Shown here one piece after another: positions 2,378-27,657 of a stretch of DNA of 64,000 bases. Position numbers and translations under genes: made by a program. Under the pieces are notes generated by a model, which saw only the letters and a program-made list of their open reading frames with translations, searched no databases and had not been told where the DNA came from. Origin of the DNA: Ischnura elegans (taxonomy: Eukaryota; Arthropoda; Insecta; Odonata; Coenagrionidae); contig NC_060252.1 in NCBI RefSeq assembly GCF_921293095.1, forward strand, positions 38,688,881-38,752,880. The letters are read 5' to 3'. Within the stretch, counting starts at the first letter, position 1. Each line of letters begins with the position of its first letter.

Positions 2378-2446
2378 AAAAGAGCAGTCAGGCAAGTTTC
2401 CACATTTGCCGGAGACAGAGGCGATCTATTCCAAGATATCTTCCAG
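2378..2446 (+). CDS. gene A exon a
   Basis: 23 whole codons between acceptor TTCTAG and donor GTATGT, phase 0 at both ends. Shares the motif RQV..A.DRG...F.D.F with gene B at the same place. Confidence 0.7.
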
Positions 2447-3337
2447 GTATGTGCAATTCCTCATTTTTCGGCTACATGAAAAGTATCTACAAACGATGTT
2501 GAGTGCCTAATGCCACCTTTTAGCTTCTACCCCCAACCCTTGATGCATGGCGTTATTTCGATAACCACCAGGGTTGGGGACTTGCTTCATTTATTAATTT
2601 ATATATTGTGCGGATTGGAGAAATAAATTTGAAAATTGCACCCTTTACGGAAAAGGAATTTATGATATAACCATATGCTGTACAAAATTCAATCCTCAAT
2701 AAATTAATTAATGGTGTTTTACATAAAATATATTAAATTTAATTAGCATATTATATTTAGATGGCAAAAAAGCTTGTGTGTCACAAAAATTCCCCCTCAG
2801 CCTTAAATTATAGGTATGTTTCGAGACTTTTCATCCCCAAAAAATACCCGATGTTAGGTATCACATTTTATTGTTACCGGAAAGGATATTAAGGTATTAT
2901 TACATCTTATATAATTTCTTTATTCTCTGAATACATCATTCGGCGGTAAGAACTAAAATGTCTACTTAATATTTGTAAAAATCCATCGATCAAAAAAATG
3001 TTCATGTGTAAATGTCCAACCTGTTCACCTCATTTACTATCGCATTAAAAAAATAATAAGTGTAATTGTGTCACAATGACCAGTAAATATAAGTGGCTTT
3101 GGAAGAAAAATCGACATGTTGATTATTTTTTCACTGAAAAACCACAAACAATCGAAGGAACTTAAGATTATTCTAATGTCTCTTTTCGCACCCTTCCAGA
3201 TACCCATCCAGGCTCTTCAGGCGATTTCTGATTTGATAAGCAATACAGCCACGAGAATCCAGAAAAGGCGAGAAGCCTACGAAGCTGCACACAAAGAGGA
3301 ACTGCAGAATGACAAGGGAGAACTACGAAGCGGCTGA
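2378..3337 (+). CDS. cluster gene A: small protein of unknown family, 3' part
   Basis: Two exons, 2378-2446 and 3200-3337, join in phase 0 to 68 codons and a TGA. The first encodes KRAVRQVSTFAGDRGDLFQD plus IFQ. The second opens IPIQALQAISDLISN, continues into a charged helix RIQKRREAYEAAHKEE, and ends GELRSG. I do not recognise the family. The product aligns closely with gene B and more distantly with gene C, which has a signal-peptide exon, so A is probably also secreted. No start exon was found in positions 1-2377; it may lie upstream of the window. Confidence 0.7.
2839..3003 (+). repeat. direct repeat, copy 2
   Basis: Diverged copy of 1359-1520 in the same orientation, lying in the gene A intron. 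Shared blocks include TTTCTTTATTCTCTGAAT and CATCATTCGGCGG. Confidence 0.6.
3200..3337 (+). CDS. gene A terminal exon
   Basis: Acceptor TTCCAG, then 45 codons and TGA. Near-identical in pattern to the gene B terminal exon: IPI..LQAIS.LISN.A.RIQ.RREAYEAA. It is about seven residues shorter at the acidic tail. Confidence 0.75.
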   Translation: MPIQALQAISDLISNTATRIQKRREAYEAAHKEELQNDKGELRSG

Positions 3338-5682
3338 AGACGATCCCACCAACAAAATTACGAGACTAAAAGCTCAATCTCTATCACATTACACTTGTAT
3401 ATAGAGTAAATCTCCGACGATGAAGAGTGACTAAAAATCAATGCTCAAAGAATAGAGTTAGTTATGGGTAATCTCCCAGTAAGAGTGGGCTTACATTGAA
3501 GTTATATAATGCATTCCATATTCCATGCATTGCAATCCATAAACTGGCGCCCGATATTATCCAAGCTAGCATATTTTTTCTCAAGTTAGACAATGGACCT
3601 GTCTTTCACAAAAAAATTCATGTTCACAATACCAATCATGTCAAAAACAATTCCTAAAACCTCTTCTGTTCCTTTTTGTTCCAAGCTGTTCCTCGGTAAA
3701 CTTGAAACTTGCTTGCTTGCTAGCATACTTACATCCCTTCCCGGAAGATTTCGGTAACATCTTTATTGCATTTCCAAAATTGAAGTATGGAGCTCTAGAG
3801 AACTCTTTACCTCTTCTTCATCTTGTCTAAACGATTCCTATCCATAGCAGTATTAAGTAATTTTGACTGGATCGAGTGATTCAAACTAATGTTTTTCGTC
3901 GTCAACCTGGAATTGTCTTCTTTAACGATTCTAATTTTCAAGTTGATATACATCATACTAATCCTACTACCGTATAATAAAACGTCCTTTCTCATCCTTT
4001 CACTTCATTTCATATCAATCATCTACACCCTCATCACAAAATTCTGTTTATCTCAGAAGTACATTAAGCCCTCTACACTCATTTTTGTCATCCAGAATTC
4101 TCCTACTCTCATTCACTCCATTACAAATAGCAATAAAATTTGATTTTGAAAAAAAAATAGCTTCACCCTAAAGCACTCATTTACTTTAAAAGCAATTGGC
4201 TTATATTGATGGGGTGGTATTTCCGCCATATTTTTCTAATAAATATCGATTTACATGCTACAAAAATGCTTTGGCCATATAGTAAGAAAATAGGTATTGG
4301 CTCAAAGTATCTTATTCTCTTCAGATAGAAAATAATAAGTATCTATAATGGATTAAGTCCTATCATCAGATAGAATAATGTAGCAAGAAAATTTGTTGCG
4401 TGGATGAAAATACTCAGAACAATTTATGATTCCATTATTTTCATCGTCGATTCCCACCTAGAAAACATGCCGAAATATTTATAGTATCTATTGATTCTGT
4501 GACCATTTTTAACCATCAATATCCATAAAATAATCTATTCAAAGCTAAAGAAGTCCGATTGAAGGTATTTATTATTCGTAATTTTATTGATTTGGAGTAT
4601 GATACAGTGAATCGACCAACGTGGTTTTCAAAATAAACGGAACTGATATATTACCTAAAGGAGGCAAAGCTTATGTTACCATTTTACACCATATAAACAA
4701 GATAATTATACTGTACAGTGCTTAATGTAAATAAAATTCATGTGTAAAATATTTTTGAATAAAATATACGAAAAAATAAATAATTTTTTTACCTTATTTA
4801 TTCATAGATTAATATTCAATGAAGTTTTCGATTCCGCCAAAAAGACTATGAAGAAAAATTGACTCGAATGCCTACAAGATCTAGGCAAATAAAGCATTAT
4901 ACTAATTTTGATACCAGGAAGCAGCTGGTTTTATGTCGTATGTAGATTCCGATCTGATAATTGGCATTAAATTTTCATACCTCTGCTCCTTTGACAATTT
5001 TGAAATGAAACATGGAGAATGCACTAGTTATTTTTTTCAAACGATTATTAAATCTAAACCGCTCTCTTGAGAAAAAAATCGAACTTAGTGAATTTTCTGC
5101 AGCGAAACTTTATTAAAATTCCTACATTCTACTCTAAAAAAGACTACTAATCAAAATCAAATCCGAAAGGAAGTAATATCCCTATCCGTTTTTCAGTCTC
5201 ACTTTAAAATTTTACTAGAGCATCACCAGGTAGTATTTATTCACATTGGAGGATGCACCTATGCATGCACCCGCGTTAGAGGCTTCTGACTAAAATTCAA
5301 CGAAAAAGCCTAGCTGAGAAACAATTTACCACAATGACGTAGAAGGAAAAGTTAGCTTTAAAAGTAATCTTCACCAGGAAAATATGATTGAATCGGTAAA
5401 ATGCACGAGTAGAGAGTTAGCCACACAAGCATGAAATTCATCAGCACGTGCATTGAAAAATCACGCATCTACGCACTCAAACGTTATCATTAATTGAGGT
5501 GTAACACAGTGCTTAAATGACTACACACCCACATTGGAATGTATTCATTTAATGAAAATGAAAACAACGTAAGCTTCATGCGATGGAAGAACGTTAATAA
5601 TTAAAGGAATCTAATTGAAATAGACTCGAGGCGATACCAGTGGATGATGAAGACGGAATCAGTGACTCTTACAATAGCCTGA
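3338..5682. other. AT-rich region between genes A and B
   Basis: Contains the gene A 3' UTR at its start. No coding exon, transposon end or clear repeat was recognised. A hydrophobic open frame at 3889-4143 is judged chance AT-rich sequence. Confidence 0.5.
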
Positions 5683-6128
5683 ATCACACGATCATTCTTT
5701 TTCGTCGCGAAAGTGATCACTTTCGCGACTACTGCGCAAAATGATCGTCGGCGGCAATTGTTTTTCGCGATCGCGATCGCGATGTGGATTCCCATCGCTA
5801 TTTTTCATCACTCGTCCGGTCGCTTTTTCCGTCGCTAAAACCGTCACTAAAACCCCATATCAGCCAATCGGAACGCATTCCCCTATGGAGCGATTGCAGC
5901 GCAATGTTTGACAATTGTGGGAACGACATAAATAAACAAACACGCTATATAATTTTGTGATGTGGGTCCTATGACAACGAGCTGTGATATTGGAAATGAT
6001 GCGAAAAGCGACGGCGGGAGTGACCGTGTGATTTAGAAAAATGATCACAAGAGCGATTGCTTTTCGCGACGGGAAAAGTGATCTCGGTAGTGATTACTTT
6101 CGCGACGAAAAAAAAATGATCGTGTGAT
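5683..6128. mobile_element. MITE with about 40-bp inverted ends, class unknown
   Basis: Ends ATCACACGATCATT and its complement, extending as imperfect inverted repeats for about 40 bases with GTCGCGAAAGTGATCAC-type subterminal motifs. The inside holds CG-rich GCGATCGC arrays. I could not settle a target duplication. Two 60-codon frames inside are not genes. Confidence 0.6.
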
Positions 6129-7201
6129 AGTTAAAACATTCGCGGGTACTCCTCTTAACTTAGTTAAAAAAAAACTTTTGGGCTATGCCGCCGCGTCAGT
6201 TTTTCGGGTAGCCCCAACGTTCCCGACCGATACTGGTCGCTTTCTCAAGGGAATCTGTATCCCTTTTTCTTTTTTTTTAAGAATCTTTTTTAAGGTACAT
6301 GAATTTTAGTGCATTTGAAGATGGACGAGAACCCTAAATAGATTTAAAGTAATTTTTCAGAACCTCCAAAAGTTTTTTTAAGTCACAGGAACCCGTGACG
6401 TTGAAGTCTCGATGGAATGCAAAATGATTTCGATGAGAGGAATAATGAATAGGTACCTCAAATGTTCACATGAACAGAAAATGCAATGCCTTAGTTCAAA
6501 AATATTATAGACGTTCACTATCAATTGTAAAAATGTTACGCTACGGAAACCTTAATATATTTATTTTAAATATTTTTTCCAGTTCAAACTTTAGTATTTT
6601 ACGACGCAATTTCTGACGTAACCTAATATTTTTTAAGTCTCATCATGCTAACCGCTGGGCCTGGTGATCATTCTGGAGATAGTAACAGCACATAATGGGT
6701 ATTGCTTCGGGGAATCTTAATATTTTTAAATTATATTATTATCTTCTAATTTCTGATCAACATGTAACTGTAGAAATAAATATTACTTCAAATCATTTTG
6801 CGGTTCTCTTCCATCATCAAACGCACAAGGAGTAACTGGTTCAAGCAAGAAAAGGTACAATTTTTTTCCATTTTCCATTTCTGTTATAATTTAATTATAG
6901 TATCATTTGGTGCGAAAATTCCACGGAAGAAAAACCATGAGCCTTGTCCGATATATTCGCTGTATCGTATTCGCTACAGGTAGTCGCGAATTCGGGATAT
7001 TCAGGGCCAAGTTTAAGATTTAAGTTATCATTCATCTTCTTCCGCCAACTCCGCTGCTATTTCTTTGAGCAATGTAGCGTACTTGATCGGAAACTCCGCC
7101 TTTAACCAGTTGTATAGATGTATTCATGCAAATAACTGTATTTATAAAACATTTCTCATGCTAGTTAATAACTTCTATATACATGCCTTCTTTTTTTCTA
7201 G
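6129..7201. other. upstream region of gene B exon a
   Basis: AT-rich. A stretch at 6800-6855 encodes a basic segment ending in a GT site but lacks an acceptor, so no exon is called. Any missing gene B start exon could be here or further upstream. Confidence 0.4.
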
Positions 7202-7270
7202 GAAAGAGAGAAGCGACAAGTCTTAACTTATGCTGCTGACAGAGGCAATTTCTTCGAAGACTTCTTCAAG
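7202..7270 (+). CDS. gene B exon a
   Basis: 23 whole codons between TTTTCTAG and donor GTACGC, phase 0. Same length and phase as the gene A counterpart. Confidence 0.72.
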
Positions 7271-9338
7271 GTACGCCATTAATCAAGTAAATTTTAACCA
7301 ATTTAATTTTCATGATTAAAAAAATTAAATTTAGGTGACAGGAATTTAATTTACTTTGAAACAATAAAAAATTACCAGAAATCAAATGGCTTTAATTCGT
7401 CGATCGCCATTATTATTACAAATAAATTAAAAAGAGACTACATTGAAGTACTTTACGGTTTCGTTTAAAGAGGGTAGACTACATATTTTATCGCAACGGA
7501 TTTTATTATGGCATGAAAATATTAAAGCCATTCGATCATAATTAATAGATTCGATAATCAAGAACCACAATTTCCTTCCGGCCGGGAATTTGACATCACT
7601 GTTGAAGTCGAGGAATTCGGTGTAAATTTGATATATACTTCACTGAACCTAAATTTCATGATTATTTTTCACGTGCTAGTTCGGTAACAGGCCATCATTT
7701 GCGAAAGTCGCGTTTCCTGCTCTTGAAAAGGCACGTGAAATCTTTGCGGTCGATTATACTCGAAATTATAACGTTTATTTAATTTTTTAAAGATGTTACT
7801 ATCAAAACAAAGTGGCAAATATGTATAAGCTATTTTTAAGGTAAAATTAATTTATCATAATAAATCTAGTATATAATGCAAGAAATGTTTTCATTGAATT
7901 TGGACTAATTTTTCTTCAGACCTTCAAAGTCTCCACATTTACGATTTTAAAAGATACAATTTAAAATAATTATTAATTTTCATGAGTTTTCTAAAAAATT
8001 TCCGGTTTATAGTTAATAATTCCTTGTACTAGCTTTTACATATGGAATAAGATACCAACTGAAGTTAATCATTTTATATACCTATGTTAAAACATTAAAA
8101 TAAAAATATTATGATTATTTACTTTCCGGGGAAAATCTTCAGTCACTACTATTTTTTTCAAGTTTGAGTTCTTGTCATTATGGTCTTATTTACTACACCA
8201 TTTTCTTCTTTGTTAAGTCAAGAATACATTTGTTATTTGTGTTGTATAAAATCGGGTTTGGTGTATAACTCCAAATGCTTTTTTACGTTGATACATGCAT
8301 TTGTTATGTTATGAAATCAGAAGACTTAATGCACAGACATTTCTAGAAATAAAAAGTTTATATTTCTTGCAATTACTGTTGGGACTGTAAACTATATTTT
8401 TATTATTTTTGTTCTTAAGGATTTTTACTGAACAAATAATATTTTTTTATCTATTGTGCGAGAAAAAAGACGAACTCTGTCAAGTTTCGGTGTGGAGCAC
8501 TTAATCGGTTTCTTGTGTAGTTATAAAATGAGATTTATTTCATATTTGAGGAAAATGTGGTTATTGAACAGGGTTCACTCTGTATTTTCTGATATTTTCA
8601 AGATTATAGCGTAATTTTTAAACAAGTTATCCATTAGGTAAGCTAAAAAACTACTGTCGCTCGACCAGTCTTTTTCCTTAATGAATTACTTGTTTAAAAC
8701 CTATAATATCATCCTAAAAATTTGAGGGTATATTGCCTAGACTCTTTTCAACTATTGTCTGTTTCTCATATTTGAAAATTTTTTGTTTACCTTAGTATTC
8801 TCTATTATGTATAATTTTTCAATTTAAGATAGATCTATTCTATATTCCCTGAATATTTTAAGATGATATCGTAAGTTTTGATCAAGTAATTCATCGCGAA
8901 AAAGACTGAAAACAGTCGCTTGAGAAGAAGTGATGCATCCTCTTATTATTTATAAATTGGGAGAGGAATGGATATGCACGTAGTCACTTCCTTATATCCA
9001 CATCCTTATTTCAAATTAAAAATCAATGAAATGCCAAAATTCAAACCTCCATACGGGAATGTGATCATCGTGCTCTATGAGCGAGGCTGGGCGGTCAATG
9101 AGTTATCGGAAGACCTCCAGCCTTAGATGGCCGGGCTATGGAAGATCCTTCGCTGATTGATTGACTGTATTTTCCTCCTCTCCTTTAGATTCCAATCGCG
9201 ACGCTGCAGGCCATTTCCAACTTAATAAGCAACAGCGCCATGAGGATTCAGAGACGGCGAGAGGCTTACGAAGCGGCTCAACTGCAGGATCAACACGACA
9301 AGGGAGAGCTGCGACGTCGCTATGACGACGACGACTAA
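7202..9338 (+). CDS. cluster gene B: paralogue of A, 3' part
   Basis: Two exons, 7202-7270 and 9189-9338, join in phase 0 to 72 codons and TAA. Exon a encodes EREKRQVLTYAADRGNFFED plus FFK; note KR followed by Gln, a possible prohormone cleavage that would leave an N-terminal Gln. The terminal exon encodes IPIATLQAISNLISNSAMRI, then QRRREAYEAAQLQDQHDKGE and an RRRYDDDD tail. It is a clear paralogue of A at both exons with the same intron position and phase. No start exon was found between 3338 and 7201, so B could use an upstream exon shared with A as an alternative 3' end, or have its own undetected one. Confidence 0.7.
8590..8930. repeat. three alternating inverted copies in gene B intron
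   Basis: A block around 8590-8660 is repeated inverted at 8665-8740 and direct again at 8845-8930. Shared words include AAACAAGT, AAAAAGACTG and a GTCGCT core. The first two copies could fold into a long imperfect hairpin. It is probably a foldback-type remnant. Confidence 0.4.
9189..9338 (+). CDS. gene B terminal exon
   Basis: Acceptor CCTTTAG, 49 codons and TAA. Hydrophobic positions repeat every three to four residues in the first 20 codons, giving an amphipathic helix, followed by a basic patch QRRREAYEAA and an acidic end. Confidence 0.75.
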   Translation: MPIATLQAISNLISNSAMRIQRRREAYEAAQLQDQHDKGELRRRYDDDD

Positions 9339-10844
9339 CAACAAGCAGAAGGAGGAATGGGAACATCGTCAGACATTTTGTTTGGGAAGCAATCGAGTCC
9401 TACCCTTCACACAAATCAGTGCCATAACACTTATAACCAGGGCCGGAACTAAGAGTTTTGTCTGGGTGGCATGAATCAGTTTTCCACACCTCCCTAAGCC
9501 TAACACATGAGAGGTACTTATCTCAGCCCTCCAATGTATTATAATTACTTTTCACTGGACGCCTTTCAAATGATATAAAAATTTCATAATTCGTCACGAT
9601 GATTATATACAGGTTATGTACAGTACGGTATGATATCCAAAGAGTGTAAGCTTTCATATCATGTTGACATTGCCTCCAGCATAAAGGAGAATGGAAGGAA
9701 ATGCATTCAAATCAAATAGGGCGAATATGTATTTGGTTCAATTGGACAAGCATTTGAATAGAAATTTCGCATGTTAAATGTATTTAAATAAAATATTTAT
9801 TTATTTATATTTTTTAAGTTTTATTTCGCAGTAAGTTTCTCTTCATATCGTTTAAATCAATTTCACTCATTTATCAGTAAAAATATTAAGCTATTAAATA
9901 ACAATGAGTTTTCATGGTCAAAAGAACGTTATTTTGATATCGCCAATTTTCAAATGGCACCTAATTAATACGATACGACTTTTGAAAATTCACCACGATA
10001 TAAAATTGCTTGTCCTGATCACGAAAAACTACTTTGTAATAGCGGAATTTTAAAAAAATCAGAATTTTTGCTTACGCACCGACTAAAGCAAAATGCGAAG
10101 AACTAGCGTCAAGAATAATTTATGAAATTTCATTTTCAAGCTCGAATAATAAATCAACGAGCATGAGTAGTAAATAGTTTACGCTGGTAATTAAAGGAAA
10201 TCTCACAAAATGTTTCGAGATTCGATAATTATAAAATGAATAGAACAGCGATAGACAGCAAAATGGAGTGTCAACATGCAAACGAGAACCGGGTTGATGC
10301 GTTGACTGACATACGATTTCGAGGGCCTCAGTCCAAATCCCGACGCTAGTGGTTATTTTTCGGAGAAATCCCTATTCTTACATTGATTATGTCATAAAAA
10401 CCACTTTTCTTCAGCCCATAATCTCGATCCGTAATACGCGTGGTTTCCGTTTTGGGATTATTGCCAAATCTAAGGTCTTCCGGCTTCTCGGGAACCACAA
10501 GCCGCAAGTATCCTGGCTTATGTTGCATGCACCCTTTGCCTTTTACCAATCTTCCGCTCTTTATACTCTAAGGATTCAGATTACTACGTCGTCACCGTGA
10601 AAAATAAGTGACATTGTTTACTAGAGACTACTTCAGCATACAATGATTTTCACTGTTTTCCAGAACAAAAAATAATCATGGAAAATTCAAGTGCAAACTT
10701 AAGTTGAGATATCACGCCAATAATACCTTTTCTCCTTAAATTCATAACAAAATTTTATAAAATAAGAATAAATGAGCATTAATATATATCACTTCCCAAC
10801 ATGAATACACTGACTTTTTCCCATTTTTCTATTGCCCTGAGATA
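9339..10844. other. region between gene B and the mariner
   Basis: The start is gene B 3' UTR. Around 10285-10345 there is a weak tRNA-like piece with a B-box-like CAGTCCAAATCCC. Otherwise I see nothing recognisable. Confidence 0.35.
9787..9792 (+). promoter_or_regulatory. candidate gene B poly(A) signal
   Basis: AATAAA about 450 bases after the gene B stop, in an AT-rich stretch. It is the first clear match downstream. Confidence 0.3.
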
Positions 10845-10992
10845 TTAGATTGGGGAAAAAGAAATCCATTATTTTGCAGGTTGATGGCTGTAGTGATCGA
10901 TATCTCGTAAAGTATACATCAGACGATTTCAAATTTAAGCTCGTTGTCAAGGTGATATTTCATACTAAATAAATGTAGTTGCTATTTATTGT

Positions 10993-11990
10993 TTGGTCCA
11001 TTCAGTTGCTGGTTACATAATGTTAAAATGGAGGTCAACAACGAGAAAATTCGGTGAATTTTACATTTTTTCTTTGATAAAGGCAAAAATGCAACCCAGG
11101 CGACTGAAATTTTGTATGGTGGTTATCGTTCCCAAACTCCAACAGATAATTACGAGCAGTTTTGGTTTTGTAGATTCCATTCAGGAATTTTTGATGTTAA
11201 AGATGAATCTCGCACGGGCAGGCTAGTCATCGAAAGTGTCGATAAATCACAGAAATAATCGAAGTTAACCGCCATGTTAGTAGTCCTAACATCGCCCAGG
11301 AGATAAAGATCGACTATAATACAGTTTTACACCATTTGCACAAATTTGAATTGAAAAAGAAGCTCGATGTTTGGGTGCCACAATAATTTAACACAAAAAA
11401 TGATGGATCGAATTTCCATTTGCGAAGCCTTCGGCAAACGGAATGAAAGCGACCGGTTTCTTAAACGGAGGATGATTGGGGATGAGAAGTGGGCTACATA
11501 CTACAATAATATGTAAAAAGGATCGTGATCAAAGTGCGGTTAACCTGCTCAATCGGCGGTCAAACCAGGACTAACGGCCAAGAAGGTTCTGCTGTGCATT
11601 TGGTGGCACTGGAAAGGAATCATTTAACATGAGCTGTTTCCATAAGGCAAAACGTTAAATTCAGATCTCTTCTGTCCATAACTGGACTGTTTGAAGCTAG
11701 CAATTGACCAGAAACGGCCAGAACTGGACAACAGGAGAGGCGTTGTGTTCCATCAGGACAACGCAAGGTCACACACGTCTGTAGTGGCTCGCCAGAAATT
11801 CCGAGAGCCTGGCTGGAAAGTTTTAATGCATCCACCGTATAGTCCAGGTCAAGCACCAAGTGGTTATCATCTTTTTCTCGCATTGCAAAACTTCCTGAGT
11901 GTTAAGAAATTGGTATCAAGAGAAGATAAAGAAAAACGGGTACTATTATAGATTTTCGCCAAAAAATACCGAGACTTCTATGCGAGAGGC
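10993..11990 (+). pseudogene. mariner transposase, inactive
   Basis: Recognisable pieces in several frames: DVKDESRTGR near 11190, DDEKWATYYN near 11490 (first catalytic Asp kept), HQDNARSHTS near 11755 (second Asp kept) and PPYSPGQAPSGYHLF near 11840. The spacing is DD34D, but the third Asp is Gly. The frame continues to RDFYARGI, where the retrotransposon is inserted; the end QNGAYLTEIGQPK resumes near 13787. Frame breaks and the lost Asp make it non-functional. Confidence 0.88.
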
Positions 11991-13785
11991 ATAATAATAA
12001 TAATATATAATAATATATAATTTATTCCATTTACAATCAAATATTACATTTTAGAACATACTTAAATATTTTGGAATATATAGGTACCCCTTTTAGTAGT
12101 TTTGGGGCTACCATCTTAAACTTTTTACATAGGTTTGGTGCTAGCACACATGAGAAGTAAAATTTCTTTGTATTCAGTTATTTGTTCTATTGCCGATTGC
12201 ATTCATTATTACAAAACGTATTTCAAATATTTGGACAAGGATAACTATTTTTCTTATTTTTCTTATATAAACGCATAATTACATACATAGAATATACAAT
12301 ATACCTTTTATTGTAAACTTTTTAACCCACCTTTCTTAGTAGAAACTCTACTTCCTCACACATCATAAGCCATTTTTTAACTGCGGATTTAAATCCCCAT
12401 CTTTTTTCCGAGTTTGCTACATTACTCGGCAACATGCTAAACAATTTAGGCCCTAAGTAATTGTATGACTGTCGATAAATTTCGGTCGTCGGCCTAGGTA
12501 TATGGAAGTTTCTCCAAGCTCTAATGTCATAGTTTTGTGGTCGGGCCTTTTCACCACTACGGTTATAGAATATTCTAAGGACTTTATAAATGAATAAATG
12601 CCTTAGTGGGAGGACATCTAATTTTTTGAATAGAGGAAATGAGTGGCTTTTCCTATACGATCGTGTTATAACCCTGATAACCCTTTTTTGCGCCACTATC
12701 AATGGTTTAATGTTGATAAAATATGCTCCACCCCAGCAGGCTATTCCGTATTGCAATCTTGAATTAACGAGAGCATAATATACCATTTTTAACACTGATT
12801 CAGGGCATATGTATCTGAGGAAGTAGAATTTTCTTACAATAGTAATCATTTCTGATTTTAATTTATTTATGTGAGACTTCCATTTACAATTTTGGTCAAA
12901 ATATATACCTAAATATTTTATGTGACTAACCTGTTCGATCAAAATACATTTATCACAGGAAGTAACATTATCTTTTATACAATTTGCACATTGATAGTAT
13001 AGTTTACTTTTGTTTGAGGTAGATTTACTCATGCTAAACATAATATATTTCGTTTTTTCACTTAACAACGTATAATTAGCCGAAAACCACATATTGAGTG
13101 TTAATAGATCACTTTGTATGTGTTCATATAGATCATCAACACTATTAATAGAGTAACTTAGTGCAGTGTCATCTGCGAATGACGTTAATTGACCTTTAAA
13201 CCTGCCAGCACATAAATTGTTTACATATATTAAAAATAGTATGGGTCCCAACACAGAACCCTGTGGGACACCACAGGTGAGTCGAATCTTTTCACTGTAG
13301 CAATTTTTGAGACGCACACATTGATCTCGATCACAAAGATAACTTTGAAACCAATCATATGCGGTTCCACGTATACCCGCTTCCCATAATCGATTCATTA
13401 GTATGTTATGATTAATGGAGTCGAAGGCTTTGGTAATGTCTACAAATAAGCCAGCAACTCTACAGTTCTTATTCAGTCCGTCGTTCAGCTCTGAACAGAA
13501 TTTTAATAATGCATCCTCTGTACTCTTACCACTCATAAATCCAAATTGGTTTTTATTGAAAAAAACTATGCTGATTTAGAAATTTAAGAAGTCTGACTTT
13601 AACAACTTTTTCTACTATTTTAGCAAATTCAGATAATAGGGATATTGGTCTGTAATTATTTACGTTCATTTTATCACCTTTTTTAAAAATTGGTATCACT
13701 ATTGCAGTTTTTAATTGTTTAGGAAATATTCCAGTATACATACTTAGATTAGCAATATGGCCATAATATGAAGCCATTATTAAAA
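11990..13785 (-). mobile_element. 5'-truncated non-LTR retrotransposon inside the mariner
   Basis: Minus-strand element whose 3' end is a (TTA)n-like tail at about 11990-12030 and whose 5' end is cut within the reverse transcriptase. Boundaries are set by where mariner coding sequence stops and resumes. Confidence 0.8.
12322..13777 (-). pseudogene. reverse transcriptase, one frameshift
   Basis: Two frames, 13553-13777 and 12322-13536, together give the reverse transcriptase core: NNYRPISLL, FGFMSGKST, FVDITKAFDSINH, GVPQGSVLGPILFLIY and SFADDTALSY, with the catalytic FADD pair intact. The sequence extends to the C-terminal region and a stop. It looks most like the Jockey/CR1-type LINE group. 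One frameshift near 13545 and missing 5' parts (no endonuclease) leave it dead. Confidence 0.88.
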
Positions 13786-13904
13786 TAGCAACAAATTATC
13801 AAACAAAACGGTGCATATTTGACCGAAATCGGACAACCCAAAGCATGTTAAATAATGTCCTGAAGTTAATGCAAAAATAATGGATTTCTTTTTCCCCAAC
13901 CTAT

Positions 13905-14697
13905 TATTTCCTTGACTAAAAATATCACTGTCTGAACTTGTCTAGTAAATTATCATGGTTGGGCATTATTCTTAAGAACTAGATCGAAAAAACACCACAC
14001 GTGATTTGATTATCAAATATCGCTGGATATCTGGAAAATAAAAAAAACACTTTCTAAGCGTGAATTTCAGCAATGTAATAAGCTAGCCAAATTTATTCCC
14101 TATTTAACTGATAAATTTTATTTATTTCAATGATGAATTTGAAGAGCTGCTATGTTGTTCTAAAAAAGATAAAAAGGTATTGAAATTGTGTCCCGGCTTC
14201 CAGTGTAACGCTGTCAAATGAGATTTCAACCCTTCTCTTCACACACGAAACGGCTTACGTAATTCTTGAGTGGCATCCTACTAAGAATACTATGCCGCAA
14301 GATGAAGACGTCTTGCATCCCGAAACCCTACGGACTTCACATCGTGCTCGCAGGACATCAGGTTTTCCTACATTCCCGCCACCATTTTCATCTACAGGTC
14401 TGAAATTCAATTATGAAATATATCAAATGTGGCTATGATTATTCGATCGATTCGTAATTGATTATTCCCTTTTGGTCTATCCACTCAAACTACGATAGCA
14501 AATAAACAATTAATACAATTTTAAATTCACAAATTCACCCACATCATCATAAATGATAACATTGTTGTGTTGAAATATGACGAAACCAAAGGAATAAACC
14601 CGTTGAGGAGAACAAAGTTACCGTTCCGTTCGTGAAATTCAAATTCAATGCCGTTGATCATGAGAGTACTGAACAATTCCTTAATATTTACCCCAAG
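13905..14697. other. no recognised feature
   Basis: AT-rich sequence between two transposons; no exon or repeat supported. Confidence 0.4.
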
Positions 14698-15099
14698 CAG
14701 TGGCGCAGCGAGGGGGGGGTTGGTTTTGGGGATAAATCCCCCCCCCCCCCAGAGCTCACAGAAATTTTTAAGTTAAATCTAGTTCTATAATGACCTAACG
14801 GTCGAAACGCGTTGTACGGAAAATAAACCTGTGGAATATTGCCATCTTTGTGTTATTTTTAAAACTTAAATCTATTTAACTTGATTGGATTAACATTGCT
14901 TATAGAATAGTGTGAGAATTAATAAAATATCCCTCAGAAGGCCGTAAAAATCACCATTTTGAACCATTTATCTTAATTTTTTTCCTGTGGAAGGCCTCCG
15001 CACCTCCCGCTTACCCTGGCGGGTATACAATACCCCAAGCACCCCAGTATTAGTTGCGCCTGTAACCCCCCCTAGCCTTAATTCCTAGCTGCGCCCCTG
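14698..15099. mobile_element. hAT-like MITE, CAGTGGCGCAGC family, copy 1
   Basis: 402 bases with ends CAGTGGCGCAGCGAGG and CCTAGCTGCGCCCCTG, flanked by a perfect 8-bp duplication ACCCCAAG. The ends run straight into G and C homopolymers. The 8-bp duplication and CAG...CTG ends indicate the hAT superfamily. Non-coding. Confidence 0.88.
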
Positions 15100-16545
15100 A
15101 CCCCAAGATCCAGGTAATTTTGTAAACCATGAAAAATAATGGGTGCAGAAATATTAACATTTTCTTTAAAAATTTCAATGCTTTTCAAAAATCTTTAATT
15201 TTTTGGAGTGAATGAGAATTGTAGTAATTAATAGATAACGGAAAAATTGCAGCGTCGCGAGGAAAATCAACAATTATTTGCGCATGATTCGCAATATGAA
15301 CCGCCAGAGAGTAACACCTTTTTTTTATAAACTCGCTCGTTCTGCCTTGCATAGCCCGTGACAACACAAAATCAATCCCACACATCGAACATCCCACCGA
15401 TAGAGGGACATGAGAGTCAATCGAGCAATCAAGCGAGTCTGTTTCCGACTCATCACTTAATATAAATTGATAGGGTGACGCAGCATTGAGTCGAAAAAAC
15501 TCCGAAGAACCACAGCTACTCCCAGAACCTGCCGAGGCTCACTCAGTAACATCAAGTGGTACTTTCAAGTAAACATCAATTTTAGACTTCGTTATACTCG
15601 TACAATCACCATTTTTACAATTAGAGTAAAATACGTGTTTACGATTAGAGTAAAATCATTATTACGGCCAAGCTCATGATGAAAAGGTGTAAGGATCAAT
15701 TAGTAGAGATTTCCTTCTTTGCCTCTTTTCCTTAATTTGAATATTACCATTCTTGAAATTTATTAATTTAACTATAACAACTTATCTTTGAACAAACATA
15801 TTTCCTACGTCTATAAAGTTATTCGGTCATTTTAGCTGAGTCATTTTAGCTATATTCAAATGCAAATGCTTTATGCCTTGCGTGATAAATCATGCATTTC
15901 TATGATTAGATCACATTGCATTACTTCCAATAGATTTTTTTTCATAACGAAACCATTAATTTGTAATCACAGTGTGTTAAATGGCCAATAAAAAATAATT
16001 TAACTTGGAAATAATGATCGTCAGGTGTCGCCAAGTTACGAAACCCGGGTCCCGGGTCGTGCCCATAATTAAATAATAGTGAAGCTTACAAAGTTTTATT
16101 TTTCTATTTCCTATATGGAGAGGTTTCACAAAGTAAATCCTGAAGTTATCAGTTAAATAATTAAACTCTTGGTAAAAGGCAATAATGGATTAACTATTCA
16201 CTCAGCCCGAGGCCGATTACCTAACAGTGTTCAGTAAAACTTAAATTAAACGAGTCGCAAATATTTAGTAGTTTCAATGATATGTTTAAATCTCTAAATC
16301 ATACCGAGTATTATTCAATAAATTAATTTAGATATCCTGCGTACGGCAGGATCAACGCGGTGAGCACTTGGAGGCCACCTAAAACATCCATAATTTTTCG
16401 TGGGAAATGATTGTTTTCAATGAATTTTTTCTCGAAAATTAATTAAGTGTTATGGTGTTATTTAGAGTGAAACCGCGCTGTTGTATCGGTTAATGTGATA
16501 TTATACTGCCCATCTACCATGCCAACACGTCGGGATACCAACACT
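15100..16545. other. no recognised feature between two hAT-like MITEs
   Basis: Mostly AT-rich; no coding exon recognised. A 70-codon minus-strand frame at 15185-15397 shows no family resemblance. Confidence 0.4.
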
Positions 16546-16845
16546 CAGTCAGGCCGCGAGGGGGGGAGGTTTTGGGGGATAAAACCCCCCCAGAGCTCAG
16601 ATAAATTTTAAGTTTAATCTATTTCACTTCATTTGATTGATATTACTTATATAATAGGGTAAGGATTAATAAAATATCCCTCAGAAAGCCGCAAAACTCA
16701 CCATTTTGAACCATTTATCTTAAAATTCCGCAATTTATTAATCTCGCACCTACCGTTTATCCTGGTGGGTATTCCATACCCCCACACACACTACGGTATT
16801 AGTTGCACCCCCCCCCCCAAGCCTTAATTCCTAGCTGCGCCCCTG
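16546..16845. mobile_element. hAT-like MITE, CAGTGGCGCAGC family, copy 2
   Basis: 300 bases, same family and orientation as 14698-15099 (shared inner text includes CATTTTGAACCATTTATCTT). Flanked by a perfect 8-bp duplication CCAACACT. The left end has diverged to CAGTCAGGCCGCGAGG. Confidence 0.88.
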
Positions 16846-17395
16846 CCAACACTAGTGCATTACATTTAGATAATGAAAACCGCCTTATTGTTAAGATGAT
16901 CGACTATTCGTCAAAGAATGACTTCGACCTATCTAGCATGGGTGGTGCTAGCGGGAGTAATTTAGAATTAATCCCGCCAGTGCAGATCTAGGGGTCATTG
17001 GAACGTGCAAGCCTTTCCACCGCGGCAAGGATATAGCCTTAGAGAATATTATGTATAAAAAACTTACCATCACATTGGTATACTTCCGCACCAATACCTT
17101 CCAATTCCACTTCAGAAAATGCTCTGCTTACGTAATTTCTTGAACGGTATTAGAAAGCACGAATATCATTCTCGACCGCTCACCTCCGGAATCAAAAACG
17201 CGAGGACCAGCAAAATTCCGCCGCCGTTTCGGAGGGAAAGTCACTGAAATCCACTGCCACAGATGAGACAAATATGTTTTAAGCAGCAATAACTTCATTG
17301 ATAAATCAATACAATTAACCCTTTGAGTGACGGTCACTGAAGCATATGGGAATTTACATATTTCATTCTTTCATCGCATTAGTAACAGTCACGGC

Positions 17396-17633
17396 TGCCG
17401 ACTTATAAAAAATATTGGGGTATCATGCCCCGGGAAAATTTATTAATAGTGAGTTTTAAATTTTTTAAGCATTTTAGAAGTCGTATGATCAATATTAGAA
17501 CACTGAAAACTCGACTCTCGATAACTTAACACCCCGAGGAAAATCGACAAGCCTGACACTTCTATTCCTCCCCACAAAACGAATTTTTGAGGCGGCTCGG
17601 GCCCCCTCAGTCCCCTTGTAGCCGGCGCCACTG
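17396..17633. mobile_element. probable decayed hAT-like MITE
   Basis: Ends CAGTCACGGCTGCCGAC and GTAGCCGGCGCCACTG are imperfect inverted repeats, with GGGG and CCCC runs next to them as in the neighbouring family. No clear target duplication. Confidence 0.45.
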
Positions 17634-17780
17634 ATAACAGTCAAAACTGTCGTCGCAAAGAAAAATCCACGCGGTGAAACCCAGAAGCATGGAGACAACA
17701 ACAGTCATTACCGTCATTACCTTTTATTATTATGCTGAAAAATATTCATACTGTAAAATCTCATTGTTGCTTGACATTAC

Positions 17781-18203
17781 GCTACCTTGGTTTGACAAGG
17801 TTCTAACTGACCATCAGCTGGTTTTGAGAAAAACGTTGTCAAAGTTTTAAACTGCTCTATTTCTATTGTTAATAGGAATTTATTTTTGATTTTTGGCACA
17901 TACACTAGTGATCCACTAGATACACTAGTAATTATTACTTTAAGAAAATATGTTATTTATTTTATTTTTTACATGTTTATATGAGCAATAAAATAAGTAA
18001 AATGCAATTAGAACCTTGTCACACCAAATATTAGTTTTTTCTCCTTGCAGTTGGAACTTTGTCACTGCTCTAAATCTGTTATTATTTTACATAGAGGAAT
18101 AAAAACCGGTGCAACACATAGAGAAACATAAACTTAGTTATCTTGAGTGAAAACACCAAATTTTGCAAAAATGTCAGTTAGAACCTTGTCAAACCAAGGT
18201 AGC
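17781..18203. mobile_element. MITE with perfect 31-bp inverted repeats
   Basis: The outer 31 bases, beginning GCTACCTTGGTTTGACAAGG, are repeated exactly in inverse at 18173-18203. If the TA inside the tips is the target duplication, the element is 17785-18199. Internal copies of the motif lie near 18010 and 18045. Non-coding; probably Tc1/mariner-like but unassigned. Confidence 0.75.
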
Positions 18204-21200: not shown

Positions 21201-21324
21201 GGCACATAAGAGAAGTCGCTGCGACGGAGGCTGCTGCACTAGCGTCTAGAGAGAGGCAGCGCTAACTTGTCCTAGACGCGGAAACACACGATCAAGTTCA
21301 GACATAAAGCTGCTTCCGCCGACC
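18204..21324. other. upstream region of gene C
   Basis: Near 18735-18800 there is a SINE-like piece sharing TCCTCTGGATG with the SINE at 29590. Around 19500-19950 the phrase CTGGGATTC recurs three times, a degenerate repeat. From about 20900 the sequence becomes GC-richer toward the gene C start; this probably holds its promoter, but no core element is clear. Confidence 0.4.
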
Positions 21325-21417
21325 ATGGATTGCAGGATATACCTTCTGATCGTGGCTCTGGGAGTCCTAATGATATCTGCCGATGCAGCGCCCACCAACT
21401 GCACCGGGGAGGAACCA
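21325..21417 (+). CDS. gene C exon 1: signal peptide
   Basis: ATG in a good context (GACCATGG), 31 codons ending TNCTGEEP, phase-0 donor GTAAGC. Codons 5-19 are strongly hydrophobic. The upstream 150 bases are GC-richer than the surroundings, as expected of a 5' UTR. Confidence 0.72.
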
Positions 21418-24400
21418 GTAAGCACTCATCACGAGCCGACCCGGAAGGAATCAAGGGTATGCTATCCACTCTATTCCATTATTGTGAATCTTGCCTGAAC
21501 GCGAGGGTTGCGTTTCAAGACGATAGCGAGTAGCGGGGATTATACGTCCGCCTTTACGAAAATATAGTTTCATTTCCTTCAGTTGGTGATTTATTTCACG
21601 ATTCTCCATTAAATCTCCGATGAAATACTACAGGCAAGGGGACTGCATAGAGGAGGCCCAATTCCATCCCAAGAAGGCTGATTTCTGTTGCCACTTCGGT
21701 CGCATTTTAATCGGTTTTTAAGAATGTCCGCGGCGCGGTGATGAGTGCAATGCGATCCACTTTTTTCCAATATTTTGCGCTATAATGCTTGCAATTGCGA
21801 GGAATAACATGGCAAAGATATGAAATTGATAATTAGTACCGTCATGAATGTAAATTTTGATTGGCACCCCAATTTGTACCTTATTTCCCCGTGAAACTCG
21901 AATCAATTTGTCCGTCAGCGAGGCGAGTGGCGACTTTTGTAAACCCATTTAAATGCGCATTTTAATGCTGACAACACATTTAGAGGCAGTATTGAGGAAC
22001 CTATTTTGTAATATTCGTGCCTACAGGCATGAACTACAGAGACGTAAATAACGGAGGGGGAGGGAAGAGGCCCGGACCGCTATCCGATGTGAGGAAAATT
22101 TGTAGAGCTCGCTTAGAGCTATCGTAGTACATCCTATCTATTTAATAGTACTACCACTGTATTTCCTTACTATTACCAATGTGAAATTTAAAATATCATG
22201 GGATATCTTTTTTTAAATGTCTTAACCTAACCTAACATTGATGATGGTCCCCACTCAAATGTATATCAACATAAAGTTCACTCTTAAAAAATAACTGGTG
22301 ATGAGCGACAGTTCAATTTCTCACAATCACGATTTAGGAAATCGTAGAAAATATATGGAATGGTACACGCGGAGATGATGTAAAAGGTAATTATAAAATA
22401 AATATAGTTCGGCACATTGCTACCCCTTTATTCGCCGCAATAGACGTATGGTGGGATGTGTTAGGACACCAGACGTTAATCTGTAAAAGTATACATAGAA
22501 AGAGATGAGAGTTGTGAGAGATTTGAAAGCCCGAGTTCAAACTACCGTTCTGTGAAGTCCCTCATTGTGCAGGGGAAAAAGCGAATCCATACATCCTAAC
22601 TTATTGGCAAAATAATATATCGTTTGGGTTGGACCTAGAAATATATTACAGCTCTGAACCAAATGCAATGCACCAGTGGCGTAGCGAGGGGTATCCAGGG
22701 GTCCAAGCCCTCCCCCCTCCGAAATATAAAACCATACTCACTTTCATCACAAGGGAGAACCAAATATTGAAAAATCATGAATTTACAGAATATTTCTTTG
22801 AAAAATGAAGTTTTTTCGATTATGAAAAGTATTAAAATTAGTTTAAAACCCTCTTTATAGTACCCTGTTTTTAAAAAATTTACTCCTCAGATTTTGGACT
22901 CCTCCCGAAAAAAATTCCCGGCTACGCCACTGTAATAGTACTACAACTATAGACGCACATTCGTTAAAAATGGCATCCATATGGAAACATTTTGATCCGC
23001 GTTGCCGGGAGCTGCGTGGCGAAGCTACAGCCACCTTTCAAAGTAGAAACTTAACTCACTAAGGAGTAAAATCTGTGAAATTGACGGTGAAAACAAATTG
23101 GCGATATCTTGTTTTTATCACGCGCTCGGAATTGATGTACCAAGGATTATCTTCATAGTAGATTTATTTAAATTAAGTGCTTCGCGAACCCTTATTTACG
23201 TACTACCAATAGGGTAGTTTCCTTCATCAAAGAAAACGAAAGGCATTGATTGTGATTCGTTACCCACTATTAGTGTATTCATAATACACAAATTATTTGG
23301 TTTTAGAAATACCGGTTTAGACGAATGGCAATGGTCAATTTTATCCTCATTTGAAAAAGGCCATATTGGCGCCCATAAGGTCGGAAAGTTTCCTTCGTTA
23401 GATAAGGTATTTATTATCCTTATTCAAGCCAAGCGCTACCAGCTAGCATGGGACTCTGCTACCTGCTAGCATCCTGCGTCGTATCAGCACTCGAAGTCTC
23501 GCCCCAACGTCACCTCACTTGCGGCAGCGTGAACCAGAACGACGTCACACGGTGTTTTCCCGGCATTCATACTTAGCCGTCGCGTTTTCGCGCTCTTGAA
23601 AATTTTCACTTTTCATTTTATCGCAAAAAATAGATATCGTCATTTAAAAATCTTAAATGGTGAAATACGTACTCCATGAGTAATACTCTTCCGATTTAGG
23701 CAATAAAAAAATAGGAAACCACCCTATTGTAGCTTAAAAATACAGCGAATTGCACGTGGTTGTGTAAATTATTCAAATGAAGTCAGAATATGTACCAAAT
23801 TATTCAACAAGTAGGTTAAAATGTTCTTCGTTCATAATATCTAGCAGGTATCTAAAACGGCCTTCATGTGGCTTCATTGTGGAGTTCGTGTGCCATCAAT
23901 AAAATGAAACTGACGTAAGTAGCAAAAATTAATAGTCAAATTTGCGGCAGTAAAAGAAGGCATATTTTATAGAAAAATAATTCTTACATATATATCGTTC
24001 CGACAAAAGTTGTTTGCTCACGCGAAAAATATTTATAACACATAAATTGGCCATGGCAGATAATTTAATGACGTGGGAAACAAATCAGACAGTAAATGAA
24101 AGATCTACGTAGAACCACAGAGTGATATGGAAAACTCTACCATGGTAAAACTAAAAATAAAATTGCAAATTTACCTCAAAAATTTTTTCGGTTGCCACCA
24201 GCAACCTTCGCTTACATGGAATGATGTTAAATGCAATGCTGTAGTGTTTCCTCCTCTACACAAACGGTCAACTTAATCGGCACGGGCGGACACTAACAAT
24301 TTTATTTCCACTTGGGATTTCCAGTGGGGATTTTGTTTCCTCATCTTCCCCTGGAAATCTCAACAAACAGATACGGTCAAAAGTTTTTCTCAGCGACCAA

Positions 24401-27400
24401 AACGACATAGCTTGATAATAATAACGACAGAGTTCATGGGGGGTCTGGTAAGGTCGGCTGGTCGGTAATCGCCGAGGGCCCTGCGCTTAGGGGGGCCCCC
24501 ACAACGCTCGCGTCTATCATGAAGCTTATATGAAAGGTGTAATAAAAATACTCACATTAATTAAACTAAAGTTTTTTCACAATATTAAAATTCTTCATTT
24601 TCATTAGTTGTTTTACACTATATGCATCTTCAGTGTAAAGAGATAATATAAAAAAATAAATATAATAAAGTGTCAGAAGATGAAAGAGAACCTGATGGCT
24701 TTTTTGAAAGGGTTGGTTATTTTAGAGATTTTTAACATTTCAGCGCAGTTTCAAGGAACAAATTCACTAAATAATATGTGTTAAAACTGTAAAGGATTAT
24801 TAAATTTTATAAGCTGTTAAATTCTCACTTTTCATGAGTTAGCCAGGATAGCGTCAAAATCCATTTTCAGGCACGCAATTTTTCTAAATTTTTCCGGGGG
24901 AGAATCCGGTAAGATGGGGACCAAAATGAGCCCTAGCCAAAGGCCTCCATTTGCCCCAGACAGCCCCTGGCTTGATGTAAAGCCATGTCCTATGCAATGA
25001 AAAAAGAAACCTTGAGGAGCTCGATAGAGGCCTCGCAGACGTTGACTGGTTAAACTAGCGTACAGCAGCCATCCTCATACAAGCCCCTGATTCCATAATT
25101 TCAAACACAGTTTTGCTGCTATCGGCTTAGAGGTCCGCATACTGACCGAAAGTTTGATTCCTCCTAATATTCGGAGCTATTGACAAAATCAACACCCACC
25201 ATGCATAACATGAGGAGCCCCATTGGAATACGACGCGGTTGAATGCCTCATACCGCAATCCCTCAACCGAAAACAAGAGATTTTTCTCAAGAGATCCTTC
25301 ATATCAAAAATGCCGTCATGGTCTTTCATCATTAGATCTAAATATATCATCACTAGAGATGCGTAAAAATCGCAAATGCGATATAGATGCGATGTGCGCA
25401 AATAAATGCGACATAGATGCGATGACTAGACTTTTATGATATTTTTACGCAAATCTGCCTTTTCGACGGCAAAATTCGTAATTTTGAGTAGAGCGCAGTT
25501 TAAATGCTCCGCCGACACCCACCGCTTAAAGCATGTGAGCGACTGGCCAGCTTGGCTGGAACTCTACGTGGCCGCGAACTACAAGTGGGGCAAGCCTTAA
25601 TTTATTATTGTTCTACAACATAATTATTTAAAATATTCTGTATTTTGTCACTGTGTTTCACTACATTTTATCGTCATCTACCTCATTATGAAAATAAAAA
25701 ATAGACGCTACAAAATGCGATAAACTGTTATTGGAAGTGCGATAAAATAAAAATGAAAGTGCGATTTTCACGTATCTCTAATCATCATGTGCCACCCATC
25801 CATCCTCAAACCTACAAATTCTTTCCCGAAATATGGACGTGGATTTTCGATAAGAAATTGGCAACCCTTGTTTACTTTCAGTGATATTAAGGGGATGGTA
25901 TCTTCGTAGTTAAAATTGTGCTTGGCACGGGCGGATCCAGGATTGTTTTCTGGGGGGGAGGGCACATGGGTCTGACAGGTCTTGAAGAATATTCCTCGAG
26001 AGTCCTGACAGGTGTGAAAGCTTCTTGACGCTGACGATATACAATGCCAAATCCATGCAAAGGCCAAACCCATGTTTAGACCCATTTGTAAGTGGCAGTC
26101 AACTCTCCTGAGGATTCACCCTTCATAATCCCCCTCTCTCTCCCCAAAATGAGGACCTACATTAAATCGAAGCTTGAAGCTTTTATGCGGTGGAGGGGAT
26201 CCATTTTATCTATAACAGACACTTTGCTACTTCCACAATATGTTTAAAAATTTTTTTGACCGGTTTCTGTACTTGATGATGGTGTAACAACAGGGGCAGA
26301 TCCAGGATTTCTTTCTGGGGGGAGGGGGGGGCACAAGCAAAGCCGTATCAAGAATTTTGTTCTGGGGGGGGCACAAGGATACCTCATAATGCAAAACGAA
26401 CGCAATGATAATAGGACCGTATTAATACTCTTGCATATTTTTCAAGGGTGTGGGGGGGGGGGGGCATGTGCCCCCATGCCCCCCCCTTGATAAGCCTATG
26501 TGTAACAGTCAAAACCAGTCAAATTAAGTAATTAAGTAACAAAGTGCCTGTTAAGAATAGCAATGACCTTTATGTACATATGATGACATCACATAGAGAC
26601 ATCACAATGTACATCCAATAGAGAGTAGTGTTCCAAACCCTTAAAAAAAGGAACTCTATTGACTAACGTCACATATTTTAACACAAAACGAATGTATGAA
26701 ACGATCTCATTCTCTTACAGCATGGCATACGACTAGCGCATCGACTCCAAGCAAGAGGAAATACAAAACAGACAGTTGATGATGCTCTGAATGTGAGTAC
26801 ACAATAGAATTGAGTTGAAAAAATTTACCTTTAAGCCAGCCAAAATGAGGTAAATACAATGTATCCAACAATAAGCATCAAAATCATGGACTTATATTCC
26901 CAAAGCATCAGCAATAGAAAACTGCACTAACTTTCACTATGGATGCAGCTAATTTCACAATTCATATATGTATGCATGAATTTTTAGCCGCCCAATTTTC
27001 AAAGATTCAGAATATATCTATTTTTATTCCAAGCATAAAAGTAAAAAAATATTCCACCACCATATTTTATCTTTGAATAAACAAAAGAAAACTGCGATAT
27101 AAAATGAAATTAAAAATTCAATAAGTTATAGGGACCTTGCATATATAAATCTGATCACTTATTACACACATTTGATTCAAAGACTTGTGTCATAAATTTT
27201 TACTGCATTTTTTAAGTGCAACTTTAACCCTTTTGAGCCAAAACTGCACTTAGGGTAAGCCTTTCATGCCTCAACACATTCATGAGGGAAGTTTCATAAA
27301 ATTCCATGTATAATCATGCTAATTGGTCATCCCAGCTTTCTTTGCACATATGTACCAGGTTAAAGAGTGGCACCAAAAGGGGTAAGATAAAAGCGAGACA

Positions 27401-27657
27401 CATTCGTTTCATTTTGATAACCATCCCTGACATAAACTATATCACCTCCAACATAAGAAAACAGTAATGTGTAAAAACATTCAAAATATCAATGAAATAA
27501 ATAGAAGTTGGATATCATTAATGAAATCCTAAATGCCCATAAAACTAATGTTCTAAACTCTTACTCCCAACAGATACCAATAGTAGCCCTAGAAGCAGTT
27601 CAGCGCCTCCTGAGTAACCTCTTTGTATCCAAGACCGTTGAAGTGTCGAAATCTTAA
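21325..27657 (+). CDS. cluster gene C: small secreted protein of unknown family
   Basis: Three phase-0 exons join to 82 codons: 21325-21417, 26721-26792 and 27574-27657. Exon 1 encodes a clear signal peptide (MDCRIYLLIVALGVLMISAD) with probable cleavage near ADA-AP, followed by an NCT glycosylation sequon. Exon 2 encodes HGIRLAHRLQARGNTKQ and TVDDALN. The terminal exon opens IPIVALEAVQRLLSNLFV and ends VEVSKS. The IPI start, the L.A...L.SN pattern and the RGN motif of exon 2 match genes A and B at the same exon positions, but C lacks their long charged tail. Joining exon 1 to exons 2 and 3 across 5.3 kb rests on strand, order, phase and the absence of a better partner. The family is not recognised. 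Confidence 0.62.
22432..22660 (+). repeat. dispersed repeat, copy 2
   Basis: Diverged copy of 936-1165: shares GTGTTAGGACACCAG and later the GGGGAAAAA...CAAAATA blocks in the same order. A tRNA-like GAGTTCAAACTACC lies inside. Confidence 0.45.
22674..22932. mobile_element. hAT-like MITE, CAGTGGCGTAGC family
   Basis: 259 bases with ends CAGTGGCGTAGCGAGGGG and CCCGGCTACGCCACTG. The inner sequence differs from the 14698 family. No intact duplication at the flanks, so the copy is old or rearranged. Confidence 0.7.
23212..23724. mobile_element. MITE, GGGTAGTTTCC family, copy 1
   Basis: Ends GGGTAGTTTCCT and AGGAAACCACCC, flanked by TA on each side. The middle is GC-rich. A second, inverted copy lies at 43925. 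Superfamily not determined. Confidence 0.65.
25087..25170 (+). repeat. tRNA-derived SINE-like piece
   Basis: A-box-like TCGGCTTAGAGGTCC and B-box-like AGTTTGATTCC at tRNA spacing. No tail or target repeat could be identified. Confidence 0.4.
25354..25780. mobile_element. small hAT-like element with TAGAGATG ends
   Basis: 427 bases, ends TAGAGATGCGTAAAAATCGC and the near-perfect complement, flanked by ATCATCAC / ATCATCAT (7 of 8). It shares the outermost TAGAGATG with the large hAT at 33931, so the two may be related. The inside repeats GATGCGAT. Confidence 0.82.
25930..25985 (+). mobile_element. fragment of GCGGATCCAGG-type hAT-like MITE
   Basis: One end only: GGGCGGATCCAGGATTGTTT followed by TCTGGGGGGG, matching the ends of the elements at 26291 and 37977. 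The other end is missing. Confidence 0.55.
26291..26500 (+). mobile_element. hAT-like MITE, GCGGATCCAGG family, copy 1
   Basis: 210 bases starting CAGGGGCAGATCCAGG and ending TAAGCCTATG. Flanked by TGTAACAA / TGTAACAG (7 of 8). An inner second GTATC.AG.ATTTTGTTCTGG copy follows the first. Same family as 37977-38189 in the opposite orientation. Long G and C runs next to the ends. Confidence 0.82.
26721..26792 (+). CDS. gene C exon 2
   Basis: 24 codons between acceptor TCTTACAG and donor GTGAGT, phase 0. The RGN motif lies at the place of DRGN in gene B. There is no frame extending beyond the splice sites. Confidence 0.62.
27574..27657 (+). CDS. gene C terminal exon
   Basis: Acceptor CCAACAG, 27 codons and TAA. 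Opens with the same Ile-Pro-Ile and helical pattern as A and B. Confidence 0.65.
   Translation: MPIVALEAVQRLLSNLFVSKTVEVSKS

Follow-up and report, generated by a model that had tools for sequence, protein, structure and literature searches.

What genes do the short, widely spaced exons in a 64,000-nucleotide stretch of chromosome 7 of the blue-tailed damselfly, Ischnura elegans, belong to, and how large is their family? The stretch, C7:38688881-38752880, is referred to throughout as the window, and a preliminary description of it had proposed a cluster of three paralogous genes (A, B and C) for small, probably secreted proteins of an unrecognised family. The evidence supports paralogy and small size, as well as a secretion signal and the lack of any match in the libraries searched. 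The count needs revision: a "cluster of three" is too low, as eight terminal exons were found in two clusters, and "three genes" is probably too high, as A and B have no first exon of their own in the window. As read from the sequence, the damselfly genome would carry two clusters, ~13.5 Mb apart on one chromosome, with at least eight related units for small secreted peptides between them, and these units are maintained by natural selection. The window itself probably holds two transcription units, an A/B gene and gene C, with the following exons (window positions).

2378..2446, plus strand: exon 2 of cassette A, phase 0-0 and 23 codons long; its propeptide sequence includes the RAVR site and ends LFQDIFQ; reads KRAVRQVSTFAGDRGDLFQDIFQ
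3200..3337, plus strand: cassette A terminal exon including stop, IPIQALQAISDLISNTATRIQKRREAYEAAHKEELQNDKGELRSG
7202..7270, plus strand: exon 2 of cassette B, phase 0-0 and 23 codons long; its propeptide sequence includes the REKR site and ends FFEDFFK; reads EREKRQVLTYAADRGNFFEDFFK
9189..9338, plus strand: cassette B terminal exon including stop, IPIATLQAISNLISNSAMRIQRRREAYEAAQLQDQHDKGELRRRYDDDD
21325..21456, plus strand: gene C exon 1, 44 codons, signal peptide and start of the propeptide, donor AGG/GTATGC
26721..26792, plus strand: gene C exon 2, 24 codons, HGIRLAHRLQARGNTKQTVDDALN
27574..27657, plus strand: gene C terminal exon including stop, IPIVALEAVQRLLSNLFVSKTVEVSKS

The exons are open and have canonical splice sites. 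All junctions named in the preliminary description are present, with GT...AG ends in phase 0: 2446/3200 in A (CAG/GTATGT...CTTCCAG/ATA), 7270/9189 in B (AAG/GTACGC...CCTTTAG/ATT) and 26792/27574 in C (AAT/GTGAGT...CAACAG/ATA), the latter preceded by 21456/26721 (AGG/GTATGC...TTACAG/CAT). The terminal exons open with IPIQALQAISDLISN... (A), IPIATLQAISNLISN... (B) and IPIVALEAVQRLLSN... (C). An exon order common to all three holds for exons 2 and 3 and fails for the first exon, which within the window is present in C alone; gene C does start with a signal-peptide-like exon, as had been claimed. In leave-one-out scoring, with C absent from the scoring set, the C terminal exon scored 44.0, the next AG-preceded stretch in 124 kb 18.5, and the top of 12 random sequences of equal length 32.5.

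Genome-wide searches covered 1,722,721,009 bases in 110 contigs; the ioIscEleg1.1 assembly report (PMC9975421) gives 1,723 Mb (1,722,763,890 bp in a figure legend) in 110 scaffolds, with chromosome 7 at 118.30 Mb and chromosome 3 at 139.04 Mb. A degenerate codon pattern for AG-IPI-x-x-L-(Q/E)-A-(I/V) had five matches across the 1.72 Gb, every one on the C7 plus strand, against one in the reversed control. A, B and C fit this pattern by design, so that the finding consists of the two new places, near 25.03 and 25.14 Mb. Scanning 170 kb around them revealed five terminal exons, F1-F5, each with a signal-peptide exon upstream.

C7:25031949, terminal exon of F1; signal-peptide exon at 25025895; exon 2 clear
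C7:25048124, terminal exon of F2; signal-peptide exon at 25037764; exon 2 tentative
C7:25050094, minus strand, terminal exon of F3; signal-peptide exon at 25052600; exon 2 tentative
C7:25067433, terminal exon of F4 (IPR, not IPI); signal-peptide exon at 25065258; looks two-exon, no exon 2 found
C7:25143089, terminal exon of F5; signal-peptide exon at 25135815, with a weak donor, GTTAGT; exon 2 clear

A profile built from the eight terminal exons was run over 294 kb spanning both clusters and detected no additional member; members scored 30.6-39.5, the best other stretch 12.2 and the best of four random sequences 12.7, a comparison that is partly circular because the scored exons also built the profile. 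The independent tests are the leave-one-out scoring and the genome codon pattern. When predicted products were searched against the genome at E values up to 10, the F1 query matched its own exons 3 and 2, followed by exons 3 and 2 of C, and nowhere else; these four places were also the whole result of the C query. These cross matches are weak singly (E 0.08 and 2.6 with the F1 query, 0.18 and 1.6 with the C query). The B product recovered B and A only, the F5 product F5 only, and the first two exons of A only themselves. A broader pattern gave 14 places genome-wide versus eight in the reversed control, and seven of the 14 were family members; six further non-family places were taken as chance without individual inspection, as were the six non-family matches among nine in another search (control, 5). 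No relative of A1 was found in collections of prokaryote genomes and viral contigs, both of them non-insect. F4 falls outside the codon pattern and the wider family was sought in the 294 kb at the clusters alone, so more members may exist. Two candidates were rejected: a ninth terminal exon at C3:81491398 (IPIEFLQSL), which lacks a pyrimidine tract ahead of it and is alike over only nine residues, and a minus-strand exon 2 at C7:25131644 (ending FQDVFK), which has a poor donor and lacks a plausible acceptor and terminal exon. In the test that yielded the latter, three of four matches were family members, and eight random sequences gave none.

In pairwise scoring of the units, different exons yield largely the same pairs. 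For the signal-peptide exon, C-F1 scored 60 and F2-F3 51, with the remaining pairs at 16-48; C exon 1 was compared with eight other such exons, and its best match was F1. For exon 2, A-B scored 66 and C-F1 65, F5 scored 29 with A and 36 with B, and the remaining pairs 11-21. For exon 3 the values were 141 (A-B), 79 (C-F1) and 41 (F2-F3, mutual best); F5 was closest to A (48), and the best partner of B after A was F1 (49). Each cluster has one FFEDIF-type and one DDAL-type unit, which suggests a block duplication or the splitting of one cluster. The second cluster also contains two orphan signal-peptide exons with good donors, C7:25099752 and C7:25179691, neither with a recognised terminal exon. 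The former scores 48 against the signal-peptide exon of F5 and 45 against that of F1, and no IPI-type terminal exon was found for it.

Among these paralogues the protein is conserved over the DNA. In an alignment of 67 codons from exons 2 and 3, 43 residues are identical between A and B; replacement divergence (dN) is 0.21 and silent divergence (dS) 2.66, and the first, second and third codon positions differ at 17, 10 and 34 sites. C and F1 have 31 of 45 residues in common over 45 codons (dN 0.22), with synonymous sites past saturation. Retention of the protein when silent sites have changed nearly to saturation or beyond it indicates protein-coding conservation between old paralogues. Likeness of A and B in DNA is strong at exon 2 (an 88-bp stretch, 70%) and exon 3 (~160 bp) only; setting aside a 161-base overlap between the compared stretches, what else matches is short and weak. 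The C termini differ, A (3320-3355) stopping after ELRSG and B (9300-9345) going on into RRYDDDD. The DNA is still alike for ~18 bases past the A stop, which suggests a change of frame in A or B after duplication.

What, then, would these units make? Secretion is predicted. By hydropathy and inspection (not SignalP), signal peptides were assigned to C, to F1-F5 and, through an exon at C7:38684934, to A, with B included only if it shares that exon; by inspection, their last residues form a small-residue site, and the sequence after it opens with a Pro-containing stretch (APT, MPH, APV, APL, HPQ or MPS). In the models, a signal-peptide exon is followed by a fast-evolving propeptide exon and then by a terminal exon whose putative helix opens I-P-(I/R)-x-x-L-x-(A/S)-(V/I/L). 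In A and B, RAVR and REKR, respectively, stand just ahead of QV-x-T, and KRR or RRR follows RIQ. AlphaFold2, run on the eight terminal exons, predicted one helix spanning residues 3-46 of B, with a mean per-residue confidence (pLDDT) of 77.5, rising to 89 over the first 20 residues. The reading we favour, while holding it at a little less than an even prospect, is that the units encode secreted propeptides from which a near-neutral helical peptide is set free, A and B being alternative cassettes of one gene. After removal of the signal peptide, cleavage of the A/B precursors at RAVR or REKR, and then at the basic run past the helix core, would release peptides of ~39 residues (QV-x-T...IPI...RIQ) with a net charge of -2 (A) or 0 (B). 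Such peptides would act extracellularly through the helix, as signals or protein partners and not by lysing membranes. In this scheme we infer precursor processing, alternative splicing and the signalling role alike. Its fuller form, a hitherto undescribed Odonata peptide-signalling family of at least eight units in two clusters, in which one gene splices one signal exon to two cassettes and the products are candidate ligands, is rather doubtful.

The cassette arrangement concerns the exon MSKSRTLSLLLIAAIVSAALAMPHEGH/GTAAGT at C7:38684934 (window position -3946, 6.2 kb upstream of A), which would splice to either cassette, each of two exons. Only two plus-strand signal-peptide exons passed the filter in 124 kb, this one upstream of A and B and the other C exon 1, and none was found by the filter between the A terminal exon and B exon 2. 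A looser scan of ATG frames across the same interval returned seven mildly hydrophobic frames, three with an in-frame GT and none donor-like. With the sole good signal-peptide exon upstream of both and none between, A and B are probably one gene with duplicated alternative 3' cassettes. Downstream of the stop, the first AATAAA comes after 639 bases in A, 449 in B and 13 in C; with one downstream of both the A and B stops, each cassette could end transcripts. A similar layout is described for Locusta migratoria myosuppressin in PMC4237046, where coding exon 1 is joined to exon 2 or exon 3 to give two related peptides; there too one common first coding exon serves alternative downstream exons. 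The likeness is in gene layout alone and no sequence relation is claimed: myosuppressins are short FLRFamides, whereas the A/B products would be ~39 residues long, with no usual amidation and two exons per cassette.

That A, B and C are instead three independent genes, the first exon of B having gone unrecognised by the filter, is somewhat unlikely and would be compatible with any role for the products. C and all five second-cluster models have a first exon of their own, and a first exon may be short or unusual in composition; against this, none of the seven frames between the A terminal exon and B exon 2 has an in-frame GT resembling the donor consensus.

Several results weigh against alternative cassettes and a freed helical peptide. 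The lack of a B first exon could reflect a filter miss or an unexpressed B, and the filter is not specific, passing 13 distinct frames over the 294 kb of both clusters, seven from the family and six unrelated. For the signal-peptide exon assigned to A, the highest score is with the orphan exon at 25099752 (36), ahead of F5 (32), and the F2-F3 exon 2 candidates score 20, which is background level. By inspection, the basic sites of A and B are not kept in place in C or F1-F5, and those of F5, KR and KK, lie farther from the helix. No Gly-basic amidation signal was seen at the end of the helix core in the eight terminal exons, read by eye; a bare Gly ends two of the eight (A and F4). The helix model is small (49 residues, 8 sequences; predicted template modelling score, pTM, 0.38). 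The amphipathic pattern claimed for the terminal exons proved modest in each: the observed helical moment is reached by 7-12% of shuffled sequences for A, B and C, and by 0.15-19% across all eight exons, with a combined p of 1e-4 that comes from paralogues and so not from independent observations.

In a second view of the products, they are reproductive-tract or glandular secreted proteins, of accessory-gland or salivary type, that act whole and uncut by convertase, the helix serving self-association or lipid binding. Inspection found no conserved dibasic site just ahead of the helix in C, F1, F2, F3 or F4, propeptide exons are strongly divergent between most members, and near-neutral helices fit protein or lipid contacts. 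Since A and B retain RxxR ahead of the conserved segment and basic runs past its core, we regard this as rather unlikely.

Host-defence peptides, in which the freed helix disrupts microbial membranes, are suggested by units that are small, clustered and duplicated and that combine a signal peptide with a variable propeptide and, in the terminal exon, a predicted helix. The presumed products are, however, near neutral or acidic and not strongly cationic: net charges are -2 for A, 0 for B, +1 for C, +2 for F1 and -2 for F5 (limits set by basic sites in A and B, picked by eye in C, F1 and F5) and +1 for the F2, F3 and F4 terminal exons, a range (-2 to +2) short of the clear net positive charge expected of cationic antimicrobial peptides. 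A charge near neutral fits a signal or a protein partner better than a lytic peptide; moreover, exons 2 and 3 are conserved and not diversifying, and host defence appears quite unlikely. Chance open frames or decayed gene remnants, as very short exons, long introns and the absence of a library match might suggest, are highly improbable and were rejected on the silent-versus-replacement pattern, with so many residues identical in A-B and C-F1 despite saturated or nearly saturated silent sites, intact reading frames and splice sites, and the same pairings recurring across separate exons.

Pfam-A returned no family at E values up to 10 for any of nine queries (the eight units, A twice). PDB sequences gave six matches at the same cut-off, the best, at E 0.11, to a designed TPR protein, and these were taken as chance. 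Six peptide strings of the family had no match in the literature searched, literature searches turned up nothing on such a family, and the words Odonata, Zygoptera and IPI are absent from PMC4770511; the genes may already bear "uncharacterized" names in public annotation. With its predicted signal peptides and short precursors, the damselfly family resembles insect neuropeptide and neurohormone precursors, and A and B have convertase-type basic sites bracketing the conserved segment. Unlike such precursors, the family lacks a Gly-basic amidation signal, repeated peptide copies (by inspection) and a Pfam match. Locusta accessory gland myotropin II is described in PMC4237046 as a small active secreted peptide of a narrow lineage whose precursor, like that of gene C, lacks classical cleavage sites; the likeness is one of description, and the damselfly units form a multigene family. 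Should A and B be alternative cassettes, they would add another precursor gene with exchangeable peptide exons to that reported for locust myosuppressin.

Odonata branched off early among the winged insects. Short exons set far apart make small secreted peptides easy to miss, and a conserved multi-copy family that matched nothing in the libraries searched offers a concrete target for expression and peptidomics.

Other features of the window were noted beside these exons. Between the cassette B terminal exon and gene C, inverted repeats of 37 bases, 92% complementary and 2,998 bases apart, bound 10839-13910 and presumably are the ends of a mariner-like DNA transposon; a long interspersed nuclear element with a reverse transcriptase (12322-13575, minus strand) has apparently inserted into it. 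Two copies of an interspersed repeat bearing poly-G/C, with GGAATTAAGGCTAGGGGGGG in common, occupy 14690-15100 and 16550-16840, and stretches near 22680-22920 and 25930-26500 look similar by eye. Downstream of gene C and on the opposite strand (31061-48905, minus strand) lie CLPB-type chaperone-like exons with ankyrin repeats, matching ClpB_D2-small, AAA_2 and Ank.

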